Below are positions 13,585 through 18,758 of a stretch of DNA of 44,177 nucleotides, one piece after another. This stretch comes from Woeseiaceae bacterium. GTDB lineage: Bacteria > Pseudomonadota > Gammaproteobacteria > Steroidobacterales > Woeseiaceae. The notes below the pieces were generated by a model. It did not search any database and had not been told where the DNA came from. It saw nothing but the letters and a program-made list of their open reading frames with translations. The translations under genes and the position numbers were made by a program. Numbering within the stretch: position 1 is the stretch's first letter; every line of letters starts with the position of its first letter. The stretch is taken from assembly GCA_029246105.1 (NCBI GenBank), contig JAQWOA010000042.1:1-44177 (forward strand), written 5' to 3'.

Positions 13585-14736
13585 TCATACTGATGGAGTC
13601 CTTATCCCTTTATCTTGATTAGCTTTTCCCGAAGATATCTTTGGTGCAATAATCTTCCTTCCTAGCGGTTTTTTGACTCGATCGCTGACTTTGCCAGCCA
13701 GCTGTCCGCAAGCAGCATCAATATCGTCGCCCCGCGTCTTACGTGTAGTCGCAATAAGACCACGTTCCCGAAGTCTGCTCTGAAAGTGTCGTATAGATTC
13801 CACAGAAGAGCGTTTGAATTCGGTTCCAGGAAAAGGGTTGAAGGGTATTAAATTCACTTTCGCCGGCTTACCTTTAAGCAAGCTGACCAACTGATTAGCT
13901 TGTTTAATTGAATCATTCACATCACGCAACATTACGTACTCAAACGTGATAAATCGCCTCGAGCGTTTTTCTGCATATTGCCAACAAGCTTCGAGAAGCG
14001 TTTTAATCGGATGAAGCTTATTAATGGGAACGATTTGATCGCGCAAATCATCAGTTGGAGCATGTAGGGATACTGCTAAAGCAACGTTGCAATCATCGGC
14101 CAATTTATTAATATGCGGAACAATTCCAGAAGTACTCACCGTCACCCGACGACGCGAGATACCATAGGACCAGTCAGACACCAGTATCTCGAGCACTGAT
14201 ACTACATTTCGATAATTAGCTAATGGCTCGCCCATGCCCATAAAAACCACATTGGTTACTGCTGGCTCACCATTGCTGCGCCGAGGTAAATCACGAATCG
14301 CATAACGCACCTGACCTATGATTTCAGCACTTGAAAGATTTCGATTAAAACCTTGAGCTCCCGTTGCACAAAACGAGCAGTCCAGCGCACAACCTACCTG
14401 CGATGAAATACACAACGTTCCTCGATCAGACTCTGGAATAAACACAGTTTCGACCGCCTGTCCAAGGCCGCTCGAGAACAACCACTTGACACAACCATCC
14501 TTGGACTCATATTTAGCCTGTACCTTTGGTGAAGCAATCTCCGCCTCCTCTTTAAGCTGAGTACGCAGTGATTTTGAAAGATCAGTCATTTCGTCAAAAT
14601 CATCAATATCGCGCTGATAAATCCATTGCATAATCTGTCGTGCGCGAAATGGTTTTTCCGATCTCGCAACAAGAAACTTCTCAAGATCGGTCTGTGATGA
14701 TCCGAGCAGATTTATTTTTGTTGTAGTAGTAGTCAT
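13585..14736 (-). CDS. rlmN: Dual-specificity 23S rRNA/tRNA adenine-C2 methyltransferase RlmN
   Basis: RlmN is a radical-SAM enzyme that methylates A2503 of 23S rRNA and A37 of several tRNAs. The protein has 383 residues (E. coli 384). The radical-SAM cluster cysteines are C116, C120 and C123 (CALDCSFC). The glycine-rich SAM-binding segment GMGEPLANY and the C-terminal GDDIDAACGQL, which holds the cysteine that takes part in methyl transfer, are present. It follows ndk by 12 bases on the same strand. pilF, usually next in Pseudomonas and E. coli, is not between rlmN and rodZ. Confidence 0.97.
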   Translation of the reverse strand: MTTTTTKINLLGSSQTDLEKFLVARSEKPFRARQIMQWIYQRDIDDFDEMTDLSKSLRTQLKEEAEIASPKVQAKYESKDGCVKWLFSSGLGQAVETVFIPESDRGTLCISSQVGCALDCSFCATGAQGFNRNLSSAEIIGQVRYAIRDLPRRSNGEPAVTNVVFMGMGEPLANYRNVVSVLEILVSDWSYGISRRRVTVSTSGIVPHINKLADDCNVALAVSLHAPTDDLRDQIVPINKLHPIKTLLEACWQYAEKRSRRFITFEYVMLRDVNDSIKQANQLVSLLKGKPAKVNLIPFNPFPGTEFKRSSVESIRHFQSRLRERGLIATTRKTRGDDIDAACGQLAGKVSDRVKKPLGRKIIAPKISSGKANQDKGIRTPSV

Positions 14737-14748
14737 TTCTAATTCTAA

Positions 14749-15180
14749 TTAACGAGTTCTTGGACAGACGCCGTCATCACCAAAGAAGTAATTGATTTCA
14801 ACAGCCGCCGTCTCTGTTGCGTCTGATCCATGGCAAATATTCTCTTCGATACTCATAGCAAAGTCAGCACGAATAGTGCCTGAATCAGCATCGGCTGGAT
14901 TTGTCGCACCCATAAGATCGCGGTGCTTTATAACTGCCTCATCACCACTCAGAACCGAAATCATGACAGGGCCAGAAGTCATGTAACTAACTAAATCATT
15001 GAAAAATGGACGTTCGCTATGAACGGCATAAAATCCTTCTGCCTGATCTTTGCTAAGGTGCAGCATACGTGCGGCGACAACTTCAAGGCCAGCCTTCTCA
15101 AATCGACCGTAAATCTCTCCGATCAAGTTTTTTTGTATACCGTCAGGCTTAATAATTGAGAGAGTTTGCTCAACTGCCAT
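14749..15180 (-). CDS. ndk: Nucleoside diphosphate kinase
   Basis: Ndk exchanges phosphate between nucleoside di- and triphosphates through a phosphohistidine. The protein has 143 residues, the normal size. The active-site histidine is H117 in [12 protein letters not shown]. The nucleotide-binding residues in [15 protein letters not shown] and [14 protein letters not shown] are intact. A good ribosome site (AGGGAG) lies ahead of the ATG. The 88-base AT-rich spacer up to iscA may hold its promoter. Confidence 0.98.
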
Positions 15181-15268: not shown

Positions 15269-15592
15269 TCAAACATTGAAGCTTTCACCGCAACCGCACT
15301 CACCAGAAATATTTGGATTGCGAAAACTGAAAGCCTCATTTAGGCCCTTTTTAACAAAATCGACTTCTGTGCCATCAATAAACTCCAATGCACCTGAATC
15401 AACGACTACGATAATGCCCTTATCTTTAAAGATAAGATCAGAATCATTAATTTTATCGGCATAGTTGATCACATAAGAATATCCAGAACAGCCTGTCTGA
15501 GTAACTCCCAGACGCAAACCGACACTATTGCCAGACTTATTAAGATAAGTGCGAATTCGATCTGCAGCCGAATTCGTTAGAGAAATTGCCAT
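15269..15592 (-). CDS. iscA: A-type iron-sulfur carrier protein
   Basis: The protein has 107 residues and all three conserved cysteines of A-type carriers: C35 (TGCSGY) and the C99-G-C101 pair near the end (GECGCGESF). The FRNPN text before the CGC motif is typical of IscA. These proteins hold iron or [2Fe-2S]/[4Fe-4S] clusters and pass them to target proteins. It follows the IscU-like gene by 7 bases and ends the trmJ-iscS-iscU-iscA group. hscB, hscA, fdx and iscX, which follow iscA in Pseudomonas and E. coli, are absent; ndk comes next. Confidence 0.93.
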   Translation of the reverse strand: MAISLTNSAADRIRTYLNKSGNSVGLRLGVTQTGCSGYSYVINYADKINDSDLIFKDKGIIVVVDSGALEFIDGTEVDFVKKGLNEAFSFRNPNISGECGCGESFNV

Positions 15593-15599
15593 ATAAGCC

Positions 15600-15974
15600 C
15601 TATTTTATTGTTAGATGATCGTTGATTGCCGCCTTAAGCGATCGAATCGTGTCTTCAAGCACTAGTATACGTCCGGTTTTCTCTATAGGTACAGCAAGAT
15701 CCTGCATTATTGGACCTGTTTCAAATTGTTCAAGATCTTGAACATTGCGACCTTCAAATTGACGGCAAAATAGCTCTACTGCTGCGATAATATGAGGGCA
15801 ACCCCAGGCGCGAAAGCGCAACTCGACTATCGAACTGTCAATAATCCCTGCCGAGAGTCGAATACGCATACCTTGATCCTCAAAATAAGCGGTCGGCCCA
15901 CCTATCACATCGCCAACGTGTATTGGATTTGTAAAGCAGTCATGAACAACTGGATTGTAAGGACTGTCACTCAT
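15600..15974 (-). CDS. Divergent IscU/NifU N-terminal-like protein lacking most cluster ligands
   Basis: The protein has 124 residues. Text such as FTNPIHVGD, VELRFRAWGCPHIIAA and ILVLEDTIRSLKAAI aligns with the IscU scaffold, which assembles [2Fe-2S] clusters on three cysteines. Only the middle one is kept, C59 in WGCPH (E. coli C63). By hand alignment the first cysteine-aspartate (E. coli C37/D39) falls in YFEDQGM, and the E. coli H105-C106 pair is G101-R102. About ten residues are missing after FTNP. A 140-residue frame starting at 16022 exists, but the ATG at 15974 overlaps the iscS stop as ATGA and matches the family start. It probably cannot hold a cluster as IscU does; a sulfur-acceptor or regulatory role is possible. 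Confidence 0.8.
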   Translation of the reverse strand: MSDSPYNPVVHDCFTNPIHVGDVIGGPTAYFEDQGMRIRLSAGIIDSSIVELRFRAWGCPHIIAAVELFCRQFEGRNVQDLEQFETGPIMQDLAVPIEKTGRILVLEDTIRSLKAAINDHLTIK

Positions 15975-17128
15975 AATATCGGACCAGGTGATATACTGCG
16001 AAGCCTCTTTACTGCGCGACAATATAACGATACAGCCTTGTCAATTTCATCTGATGTTGTCATGCGACCTAAACTAAAGCGAATCGCGCTTTGCGCCTCA
16101 ATATCGCTCCTACCTATAGCCCTTAGAACATAGGACGGCTCAAGGCTTTGAGAGTTACATGCTGAGCCCGTCGCAACACATAGAGGTTCGAGGGCTTTTA
16201 GTAAACTCTCGCCCTCTATATCTTCAACTCCAACATTTAAGATACCCGGATATCCATCTTTACTTGGGCCATTAATATGTAAACCATCAATACCTTGTAG
16301 GCCTTGCATTAGTTGTTTTTTTAGTGACGAGAGGTGTTTTAGGTCATCCGTCATTTTCCGCTGCGCCACTGATGCTGCCTTACCGAGCCCCGCAATCAAA
16401 TCAACAGCCAAAGTACCCGGTCGCATACGATGCTGTTGATTACCACCGAACATAAGCGGCTCAATTAAAACATCTTCGGCAACATAAAGTGAGCCCGCAC
16501 CCTTTGGCCCGTAAAATTTGTGCGCAGTCATTGAATACAAATCCACGGGCAGCGCCGCAAGGTCCACAGCAATCTTTCCAGTTGCCTGCGCACCATCAAC
16601 ATGAAACGTAATATCACGCTTGCGGCATATGGAACCGATTTTCTCAATATCTTGTATGGTGCCAATTTCATTATTGATGTGCATAATCGAAACAAGTTGT
16701 GTGTCATCTCGTAAAGCAGCTTCGAATAGATCAAGTGGAAGTTGGCCATCAAGATTTGGCGCAAGCCAAGTCACCTCAAAACCTTGCTTCTCGAGGAAAA
16801 GAAAAGCATCCACAACCGCTTTATGCTCTGTGCGCATGGTAATCAGATGCTTACCGCGATGCTCCCGTTGTTTAGCAGCACCTAAAATAGCTAAATTGTT
16901 CGACTCCGTCGCACCTGACGTCCAAATAAACCTCTCTGGATTCACGTTAAATAACTGCGCAAGCTCTATAGCAGCGTGATGCACAACCGCCAAACTCAAG
17001 CGGCCAGCAGCATGATTTGACGCTGGATTGAAGTAAGCTTCGCTTTGCACTTTTCGCATGTACTCAGCGACACTAGGATGAAGCGGCGTCGTTGCTGCAT
17101 AATCAAGATAGATAAGATCAAGAATCAT
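15971..17128 (-). CDS. iscS: Cysteine desulfurase (IscS/NifS family)
   Basis: This PLP enzyme takes sulfur from cysteine as a persulfide for Fe-S clusters and thiolated tRNAs. The protein has 385 residues (E. coli IscS 404). The N-terminal YLDYAATTPL, PLP lysine K204 (TAHKFYGPKG) and catalytic C324 in a long mobile loop (GSACNSQSLEPSYVL) place it in the IscS/NifS class rather than the SufS class. It starts on the last base of the trmJ stop (TAATG) and overlaps the IscU-like gene at its end, so the three are translationally coupled. The C-terminus is shorter than IscS, so IscU binding may differ. Confidence 0.92.
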   Translation of the reverse strand: MILDLIYLDYAATTPLHPSVAEYMRKVQSEAYFNPASNHAAGRLSLAVVHHAAIELAQLFNVNPERFIWTSGATESNNLAILGAAKQREHRGKHLITMRTEHKAVVDAFLFLEKQGFEVTWLAPNLDGQLPLDLFEAALRDDTQLVSIMHINNEIGTIQDIEKIGSICRKRDITFHVDGAQATGKIAVDLAALPVDLYSMTAHKFYGPKGAGSLYVAEDVLIEPLMFGGNQQHRMRPGTLAVDLIAGLGKAASVAQRKMTDDLKHLSSLKKQLMQGLQGIDGLHINGPSKDGYPGILNVGVEDIEGESLLKALEPLCVATGSACNSQSLEPSYVLRAIGRSDIEAQSAIRFSLGRMTTSDEIDKAVSLYCRAVKRLRSISPGPIL

Positions 17129-17844
17129 TAGCTAGATCCTTTCTTGCGGTCAATGGCAGTCAGAAATCCACGTAAAATATTGATCTCATTCTTGTCTGGA
17201 CGGGCACGAATAAACATTCTTCGCAAGCGACGCATTAAAAAGCGCGGATTGTCTAAGTCAAGAAATTCGAGATCAATCATCGTTTGCTCAAGATGGTCAT
17301 AAAAATGTTCCATTTCATCACCAGTTGCCGGTGACGCTTCGCTTTTAAATCCAGGGTTACCGCCAAGCGAACTAGCGACTCTAAGTTCATACGTTAATAT
17401 TTGCACCGCCATTGCCAAATTGAGCGATCTGAAATTCTGATTCGTTGGTATTGTAAGTAGGGCGTGGCACAGATCCAGATCGTCATTATGCAGCCCAGTT
17501 TTTTCAGGCCCAAAAACAGCTGCAATTTTACCTTTTTTACTCTCCAGTATCATGCGTTCCGCGCAATCGCGCGGCTGCATGCTGGGCCAATTAATGGCTC
17601 GATCACGCGCACTCGCTCCCACAACGTAAACGCAATCGATCAAGGCTTTACTTAAAGTTGTTACAACACTCGCAGCATCCAGCACATCAGACGCTCCTGA
17701 TGCGCGAGCCGTAGCGTCCTCATGTGGGAAGCATTTTGGATTAACTAGTATGAGATCATTCAGATCCATATTCTTCATAGCGCGTGCGACCGCCCCGATA
17801 TTACCAGGGTGCGTTGTTCCGACGAGTACAATACGTATGCTCAT
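17128..17844 (-). CDS. trmJ: tRNA (Cm32/Um32) 2'-O-methyltransferase TrmJ
   Basis: TrmJ is a SPOUT-class methyltransferase that modifies position 32 of several tRNAs. The protein has 238 residues (E. coli 246). The N-terminal VLVGTTHPGNIGAVARAMKNM, the middle VFGPEKTGL and the knot motif TNQNFRSLNLAMAVQI are characteristic. It is the first gene of the trmJ-iscS-iscU-iscA group and divergent from suhB, as in E. coli and Pseudomonas. In those genomes iscR (and cysE in Pseudomonas) lies between trmJ and iscS; here they are absent. Confidence 0.95.
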   Translation of the reverse strand: MSIRIVLVGTTHPGNIGAVARAMKNMDLNDLILVNPKCFPHEDATARASGASDVLDAASVVTTLSKALIDCVYVVGASARDRAINWPSMQPRDCAERMILESKKGKIAAVFGPEKTGLHNDDLDLCHALLTIPTNQNFRSLNLAMAVQILTYELRVASSLGGNPGFKSEASPATGDEMEHFYDHLEQTMIDLEFLDLDNPRFLMRRLRRMFIRARPDKNEINILRGFLTAIDRKKGSS

Positions 17845-17963: not shown

Positions 17964-18758
17964 ATGCACGCATTACTCAACGTAGCGGTGATGGCGGCGC
18001 GCCGCGCCGGCGCCGTATTAGGAAGAAACTTCAACAAACGTGAGAAACTTACTGTTGAGAATAAGAGTCATAATGATTTCGTCAGCTCGGCAGATCTCGC
18101 TGCTGAGAAAGCCATCATAGATGTAATTTATAAACACTATCCTGATCATGCTATTCATGCCGAAGAATCTGGCATCCAGGGCGAATCTGATCATATTTGG
18201 ATTATCGACCCGCTTGATGGCACAACCAATTATCTACATGGCTTTCCTGTATTTGCTGTTTCTATTGGCCTCCAAATCAATGGGCGTCTAGAACATGCAG
18301 TTGTTTATGATCCAATGCGCGAAGAATTATTCACCGCATCACGTGGGCAAGGCGCACAGCTTGATGGACACAAAATTCGGGTTAGTGGTAACAAAGACCT
18401 CTACCGATCATTAATTGGAACTGGCATTCCGTTTCGTGATGCAGATGAAGATCTGGGCCCATATCTTGCGATGCTTAGCAAAATCGCAAAAAGCACGTCC
18501 GGTGTTCGTCGCCCGGGTGCGGCAGCTCTTGACTTATGTTATGTGGCTTGCGGCCGACTTGATGCGTTCTGGGAAACCGGCCTAGCTCCCTGGGATTTGG
18601 CGGCGGGCACGCTAATTATTCGTGAAGCAGGTGGCATAATCAGCGCTCTAGATGGTTCAGAAGATCATATAAAAAGCGGTCATGTGCTTGCCGGCACACC
18701 ACGAATTTATCGCAGCCTTGCCAAGCTCTGTGCAAAAGAAATCAAGGCTCTTGTATAA
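17964..18758 (+). CDS. suhB: Inositol-1-monophosphatase family protein SuhB
   Basis: The protein has 264 residues (E. coli SuhB 267). The metal-binding motifs are E67 (HAEESG), D82 and D85 (IDPLDGTTNYLHG) and the late WDLAAGTLIIREAGG. SuhB hydrolyses inositol-1-phosphate in vitro and in E. coli also acts with Nus factors in rRNA transcription. Its position next to trmJ and the absence of an inositol pathway nearby make the SuhB role the better reading. It is divergent from trmJ and its stop lies one base from that of secF, so the two converge. Confidence 0.95.
   Translation: MHALLNVAVMAARRAGAVLGRNFNKREKLTVENKSHNDFVSSADLAAEKAIIDVIYKHYPDHAIHAEESGIQGESDHIWIIDPLDGTTNYLHGFPVFAVSIGLQINGRLEHAVVYDPMREELFTASRGQGAQLDGHKIRVSGNKDLYRSLIGTGIPFRDADEDLGPYLAMLSKIAKSTSGVRRPGAAALDLCYVACGRLDAFWETGLAPWDLAAGTLIIREAGGIISALDGSEDHIKSGHVLAGTPRIYRSLAKLCAKEIKALV

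Follow-up and report, generated by a model that had tools for sequence, protein, structure and literature searches.

An IscU-like protein that has lost four of the five cluster-scaffold ligands of E. coli IscU is encoded directly behind iscS in a contig of a Woeseiaceae bacterium (GenBank assembly GCA_029246105.1, contig JAQWOA010000042.1; the whole stretch of 44,177 nt is referred to as the window). The most probable reading, to which we assign a rough probability of 55%, is that, in bacteria relying on SUF, this former scaffold now serves IscS as a dedicated accessory subunit and does not assemble clusters. The argument is built on the loss of ligands, the retention of the gene, its coupling or fusion to iscS, the conservation of the docking positions, HscA and CyaY staying below cut-off in the genomes searched, and the presence of SUF. 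The protein, here designated IscU*, is probably an IscU by descent and fold, not by function.

A sequence-only reading of the window had placed the gene at positions 15600-15974 and described it as an iscS-coupled IscU stripped of most ligands. The coordinates are correct and the strand is minus, as the plus-strand frame over these positions contains stops (Table 1). In comparison with E. coli IscU, C63 (here C59) and K103 (K99) are retained, while C37, D39, H105 and C106 are gone, which leaves one of five scaffold ligands. The alignment and the checked codons bear out the earlier assignments, namely that the middle cysteine is the sole cluster cysteine kept, that G101 and R102 replace the last His-Cys pair, and that the first Cys and Asp are replaced beside a short deletion (approximately six residues of the C37 loop). 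The LPPVK of IscU, the HscA-binding motif, reads VPIEK in IscU*.

Table 1 Features of the iscU* locus in the window (positions on the forward strand)
Feature	Positions	Strand	Remarks
rlmN	13585..14736	minus	conserved neighbour
ndk	14749..15180	minus	conserved neighbour
iscA	15269..15592	minus	Cys motifs GCSG and CGCG kept
iscU*	15600..15974	minus	ligandless IscU-fold protein, 124 aa; ATG start at 15974
codons of G101-R102	15669..15674	minus	replacing H105-C106
codon of K99	15678..15680	minus	E. coli K103
codon of H61	15792..15794	minus	E. coli S65; new conserved His
codon of C59	15798..15800	minus	E. coli C63; motif FRAWGCPH, codon TGC
codon of H19	15918..15920	minus	E. coli N16; Woeseiaceae-conserved
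ATGA overlap	15971..15974	minus	iscS end and iscU* start, 4 nt
iscS	15971..17128	minus	385 aa; active-site Cys motif GSAC kept, C-terminal tail missing (E. coli IscS W387 onward)
trmJ	17128..17844	minus	conserved neighbour
suhB	17964..18758	plus	conserved neighbour, divergent

Profile searches place the protein in the broad family and outside the curated one: Pfam NifU_N (PF01592) scored 31.5 bits, above its cut-off of 22, and NCBIfam iscU (TIGR01999) scored 30.9 bits, below its curated cut-off of 192.4. An AlphaFold2 (AF2) model built from 34 family sequences (mean pLDDT 94.6) has the fold of IscU. Its best match among solved structures was human ISCU (5wlw_D; Z 19.3, rmsd 1.5, 121 aligned residues), followed by E. 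coli IscU from the complex with IscS (3lvl_A; Z 18.5, rmsd 1.4, 118 aligned; Foldseek E 4.3e-8), a difference that the tool treats as a tie. IscU/ISCU chains at Z 16-19 stood in the best 18 rows of the comparison, SufU chains scored Z 11-15, and SufE/CsdE chains reached Z ~8-9, a range that may mean a mere common arrangement; hhalign gave 99.6% against true IscU. The alignment with IscU and the structural model, which the earlier reading had proposed as a check, returned an IscU fold with an incomplete scaffold ligand set.

The substitutions are no local accident, since the search for them in relatives returned a large family. A match to the protein was present in 57 of 60 genomes of the window's order or its relatives (own genome counted), and of the 97 genomes searched in the order, 94 matched the family profile, the sole match in genome G082 being SufU-like; the three order genomes with no match are assemblies of 70-81% completeness. 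For the alignment, 236 loci were reduced to 193 distinct sequences, E. coli included, after the exclusion of SufU, phage-contig copies, non-family matches, a 100-base stub and repeats of genomes already included (L001, L002, L043, L044, L208, L219, L265, L281, L174-L193 and 17 of L144-L173). Counted by how many of the five ligands they keep, these sequences comprised nine with none, 144 with one, five with two, five with three (one of which, L269, is an intact gene cut by a contig break), one with four and 29 with all five. The 158 with at most two ligands are hereafter the degenerate set. Partly stripped forms (SDCHC, SNCHC, ATCHC, ARCHC and SDSHC, in the order C37, D39, C63, H105, C106) suggest that the C37 loop is usually the first to go. 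True IscU elsewhere in the order was considered and rejected: two full-ligand copies were encountered, both on contigs that look phage-like by eye and both lacking isc neighbours (L208:2519-2914 in G096 contig 115, and L219:2521-2895 in G103 contig 28). One of the two contigs also carries a gene resembling the small subunit of ribonucleotide reductase, and both copies may be phage-borne genes binned with bacteria.

The order suhB'-trmJ-iscS-iscU*-iscA-ndk-rlmN was found in nearly all operon loci compared, with trmJ and suhB sitting as they do beside the isc operon of E. coli. Within the degenerate set, iscS was adjacent or fused in 154 of 158 sequences (15 of them fused); of the 139 unfused loci that have iscS in the sequence, all but one (138) have it no more than 200 nt away. 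Among the IscS proteins checked for it, the active-site Cys motif was intact in 118/118. The iscA gene was found in 151 of the 158 loci, with intact Cys motifs in 150 of these, and was not found in the available flanks of the other seven. No hscBA, fdx or iscX was seen in the operon loci compared, the window's operon included for hscBA. In the flanks searched, which were unequal (mostly 1.5-4 kb, shorter at contig ends), hscA or hscB was present in 0 of 158 degenerate vs. 21 of 29 intact loci.

The complement of sulfur and Fe-S genes was surveyed in the source assembly (1.35 Mb, 88% complete), of which the window is contig 57, and in related genomes. NifU_N also matches a further gene of this genome, which encodes a 159-aa SufU with its ligand cysteines present. 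This gene lies on a different contig from iscU*, where contig 47 begins, and its neighbour is SufT-like by eye. Profile searches of this 88% complete assembly found no SufB, MnmA (over cut-off), TusA or CyaY; the missing SufB and MnmA are taken as assembly gaps, because contig 47 starts just before sufU and the assembly is incomplete. The genome search for a suf operon, also proposed earlier, returned a separate SufU, with SufB not found in the genome's own assembly. Across the 60 genomes of the order or its relatives (own genome counted), SufB passed the cut-off in 56, and HscA passed in none, with E. coli scoring positive as the control; the HscA profile has its cut-off at 708.55 bits, and its best matches, probably DnaK, stopped at 641 bits. 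Among the 39 genomes of the order (own counted), CyaY passed in none, MnmA in 36 and TusA in 6, i.e., 33 genomes of this order had no TusA over the cut-off though MnmA is nearly universal. SufS-like desulfurases stood alongside the main IscS match in all eight genomes inspected. A class-wide search covered 114 genomes, from which 45 outside the order with IscU or IscU* were taken for reading, 28 with intact IscU (L269 included) and 17 without. SufB was over the cut-off in 13 of the 17 genomes with stripped IscU, some of them picked for low scores, vs. 4 of 17 tested genomes with intact IscU, so that stripped IscU goes along with SUF at several places in the class.

Purifying selection is still visible on the gene. 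In seven pairs, dN/dS of iscU* was 0.11-0.28, compared with 0.09-0.13 for iscS and 0.04-0.14 for iscA in the same pairs, the value for iscU* exceeding that of iscS in 7/7 pairs and that of iscA in 6/7. The higher ratio, the lost ligands and the low profile scores are what a decaying relic with no function would present, but ratios this far below one, a match in nearly all relatives, conserved docking positions and fusions to IscS make such a relic extremely improbable, and a pseudogene was ruled out by selection and retention. The statement of the sequence-only reading that the gene is kept and coupled to iscS is thus upheld by the 4-nt overlap, the dN/dS values and the 57 of 60 genomes with a match.

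What selection keeps appears to be the face that meets IscS. In E. coli, IscU contacts IscS through Y3, Y11, G38, V40, K42, K59-G64 and K103, and the charge reversal K103E abolishes binding, as reported in the accessible part of PMC2854127. Conservation at these positions was assessed with 20000 random draws on the unfused degenerate sequences, of which 108 were used after thinning at 70% identity. The contact positions had a mean conservation of 0.607 vs. 0.362 for all positions, a value as high in 0 of 20000 draws, burial being uncorrected. With positions 62-64 left out, the mean was 0.559, reached in 0.00065 of draws, and the four lost-ligand positions had 0.386, reached in 0.39 of draws. 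The K99 position is Lys in 137 of 138 rows of the family alignment and in 130 of the 158 degenerate sequences.

Docking would nevertheless differ at least in part from that of E. coli, whose IscS fails to bind IscU when residues 374/376-404 are removed (PMC2854127, accessible part). Among operons with IscS in the sequence, all 23 intact ones carry the IscS tail motif, which was found in none of the 139 unfused degenerate ones, so that a stripped IscU goes along with an IscS that lacks a portion of the contacting helix. Relationships were taken from a quick IscS tree of 118 of the 179 usable proteins (every one from outside the window's close group and, from inside it, the window's own and 12 chosen at random), in which 40 of 115 inner branches are weakly supported. 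On this tree the contrast between tail and ligands amounts to two independent pairs (sign test p 0.5), and no statistical claim is made for correlated loss. The tail may have served cluster work; alternatively, IscU* may dock with less of it.

In 15 of the 158 degenerate sequences, IscS and a ligandless domain form one open frame. Nine of the fusions are in family f12, where all sampled genomes have one, four in family f10, one in family f15 and one in another order, and the fused state corresponds to six changes on the best IscS tree. The f12 fusions (L216:2317-3792, L198, L199, L200, L201, L202, L203, L215 and L217) are the most reduced, as the domain has zero ligand cysteines, Pro at the C63 position in 9/9, Ala or Ser in place of K103, and no N-terminal docking helix. 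In a model of one of them, the C-terminal part retains the IscU order with three strands and three helices (pLDDT 88-94), the N-terminal helix being absent. The f12 domain profile matched the IscU* family profile at 96.9% (hhalign, E 1.4e-10) and true IscU weakly (34%); Foldseek with the fusion model listed desulfurase-type enzymes alone, with no IscU chains, among the 50 matches listed, and was uninformative for the C-terminal domain. Pfam named the fused domain in one of six fusions tested (L267, 20 bits, under the cut-off of 22) and left the C-terminal domain of L216 unnamed. Two further cases were recorded. A single f10 genome encodes a 799-aa frame with TrmJ, IscS and IscU* in this order (L214:1520-3916, G045), apparently a triple fusion, and in the fusion from another order (L267:2415-4118, G143), apparently of separate origin, the IscU domain still has its N-terminal portion.

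The surviving cysteine speaks for a chemical role. It is Cys in 137 of 138 alignment rows, and together with H61 (His in 131 of 138 rows) it is invariant in the Woeseiaceae-like sequences (n = 75), in which H19, C59, H61 and C70 (E. coli positions 16, 63, 65 and 74) are kept in 74, 75, 75 and 75, respectively; the invariance of C59 and H61 suggests chemistry at these residues in the window's own group. This could be a persulfide relay, in which C59 takes the sulfur from the loop cysteine of IscS and passes it to MnmA or another acceptor in the manner of SufE or TusA. Such a relay would fit the rarity of TusA next to MnmA in the order (6 vs. 36 of 39 genomes) and the possible distant fold likeness of SufE/CsdE (Z ~8-9). 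MnmA can, on the other hand, receive sulfur straight from a desulfurase, as with B. subtilis YrvO. C63 is the position reported to be disulfide-linked to C328 of E. coli IscS (PMC2854127, accessible part, citing its reference 51). However, 24 of the 158 degenerate sequences (25 of all 193 distinct sequences) lack this cysteine, with ten changes on the best IscS tree, while the domain and its operon or fusion persist. Its chemistry is therefore dispensable for what is kept there, and since the losses include all sampled f12 genomes, a relay cannot be the family-wide function. As an account of the family we hold it to be unlikely, roughly one chance in five, while a relay is possible where the cysteine survives, the window included. 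The earlier suggestion that IscU* accepts a persulfide from IscS may hold for lineages with the cysteine, such as the Woeseiaceae-like sequences, but not for the family as a whole. Cysteine loss is also found in unfused IscU*, with GGPDA, GNPYA or GSPYA in its place (L204:2392-2790 in G118, L045, L205 and L206).

The same conserved residues could instead form an alternative metal or cluster site in the Woeseiaceae, with H19, C59 and H61 holding zinc or a bridging cluster together with either the loop cysteine of IscS or a partner subunit. The sequence-only reading had left room for other Cys or His residues, such as C70, completing a site, and their near-invariance in the 75 sequences is in keeping with this. 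In the AF2 model, though, C70 lies 11 residues beyond C59 along the same predicted helix, a spacing that would be too great for sharing a metal, and C59 and C70 as joint cluster ligands were rejected on this ground. Outside the Woeseiaceae-like group, the H19 position is His in 24 of 83 degenerate sequences and His16, Cys63 and His65 occur together in 14 of 83; moreover, HscA (0/60) and CyaY (0/39) were not over cut-off and no fdx turned up in the operon loci. Taken together, this leaves the metal site improbable.

Because the tie to IscS is common to the family and the cysteine is not, a structural or allosteric subunit is ranked first and the relay second, and docking on IscS with tuning of its activity is the more likely shared role. 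In this preferred reading SUF would take over cluster assembly, and the former scaffold would bind IscS by the face that IscU uses, i.e., the N-terminal Tyr or Phe, the strand ending in GCPH and the Lys of the old LPPVK. Once docked, IscU* would stabilise or tune IscS and its persulfide loop, and we infer that the effect shared by the family is structural or allosteric, not chemical. The IscS work left for it to support would probably be tRNA thiolation and other non-cluster sulfur traffic, and cluster assembly would not be one of its jobs. A different view is that IscU* docks in order to hand the sulfur of IscS, or IscS itself, to SUF or IscA, and so contributes to cluster assembly without being a scaffold. 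The intact Cys motifs of iscA (150 of 151 loci) and the presence of SUF are compatible with this, but SUF has its own SufU and SufS-like desulfurases were present in every genome inspected, and we regard such a handover as very unlikely. The changed, IscS-centred job proposed earlier hence agrees with our best reading of the sequences, given that the scaffold site is lost and the gene is kept and coupled to iscS. Of the destinations that had been named for the sulfur, tRNA thiolation would be compatible with the distribution of MnmA and TusA, and molybdopterin finds no support, as the moa genes of the window (approximately 37.4-40.2 kb, named by eye and in the earlier reading) lie 21-24 kb away with no other link seen.

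Compared with known systems, IscU* shares with E. coli IscU the fold, the gene order iscS-iscU-iscA, the location beside trmJ and suhB, C63, K103 and the N-terminal aromatics, and differs from it by the absence of C37, D39, H105, C106 and most of LPPVK. Its loci likewise differ from the E. coli isc operon in having no hscBA, fdx, iscX or IscS tail, and in being sometimes fused to iscS. The fold (Z 11-15) and the partnering with a desulfurase are also common to SufU, whose zinc ligand set is Cys/Asp/Cys/Cys; IscU* has one Cys of this set, adjoins iscS and not sufS or sufB, and coexists with a separate SufU in the same genome. SufE and CsdE may resemble it distantly in fold, and in the action on a desulfurase that is proposed for IscU*. 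The acceptor cysteine of SufE corresponds to another loop, whereas that of IscU* is at the IscU C63 place and is lost in some relatives. A reduced ISC next to a complete SUF recalls M. tuberculosis, which according to the accessible part of PMC10848736 has a lone iscS with no surrounding iscA or iscU; the window, unlike M. tuberculosis, keeps both iscU* and iscA. Natural desulfurase-rhodanese chimeras (PMC8931425, accessible part) similarly join a desulfurase to a partner domain, which here is an IscU-fold domain devoid of most ligands. Ligandless IscU and IscS-IscU fusions were not found described in the open-access literature searched, and the accessible part of PMC8300815 held nothing on ligandless IscU. 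We tentatively suggest, at somewhat short of even odds, that ligandless IscU belongs with SufE/CsdE, SufU and ISD11 as a type of desulfurase subunit not recognised before: a scaffold stripped of its chemistry, bound to IscS so tightly that several lineages have joined the two in one protein (in one case apparently along with TrmJ), and with the last cysteine lost in one family.

According to the accessible part of PMC11559095, a single Fe-S system is the rule in most bacteria, and SUF is the most frequent one. As NifU_N passes its cut-off for IscU*, family searches count such genes as Fe-S scaffolds, and ISC can be wrongly attributed to bacteria that rely on SUF. The naturally occurring forms, which grade from intact IscU over partly stripped IscU to fused, cysteine-free domains, separate the building of clusters from the partnering with IscS, which is hard to do in E. 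coli, and make testable both a cluster-independent role of IscU as a regulator of IscS and the service of IscS to tRNA thiolation in the absence of TusA.
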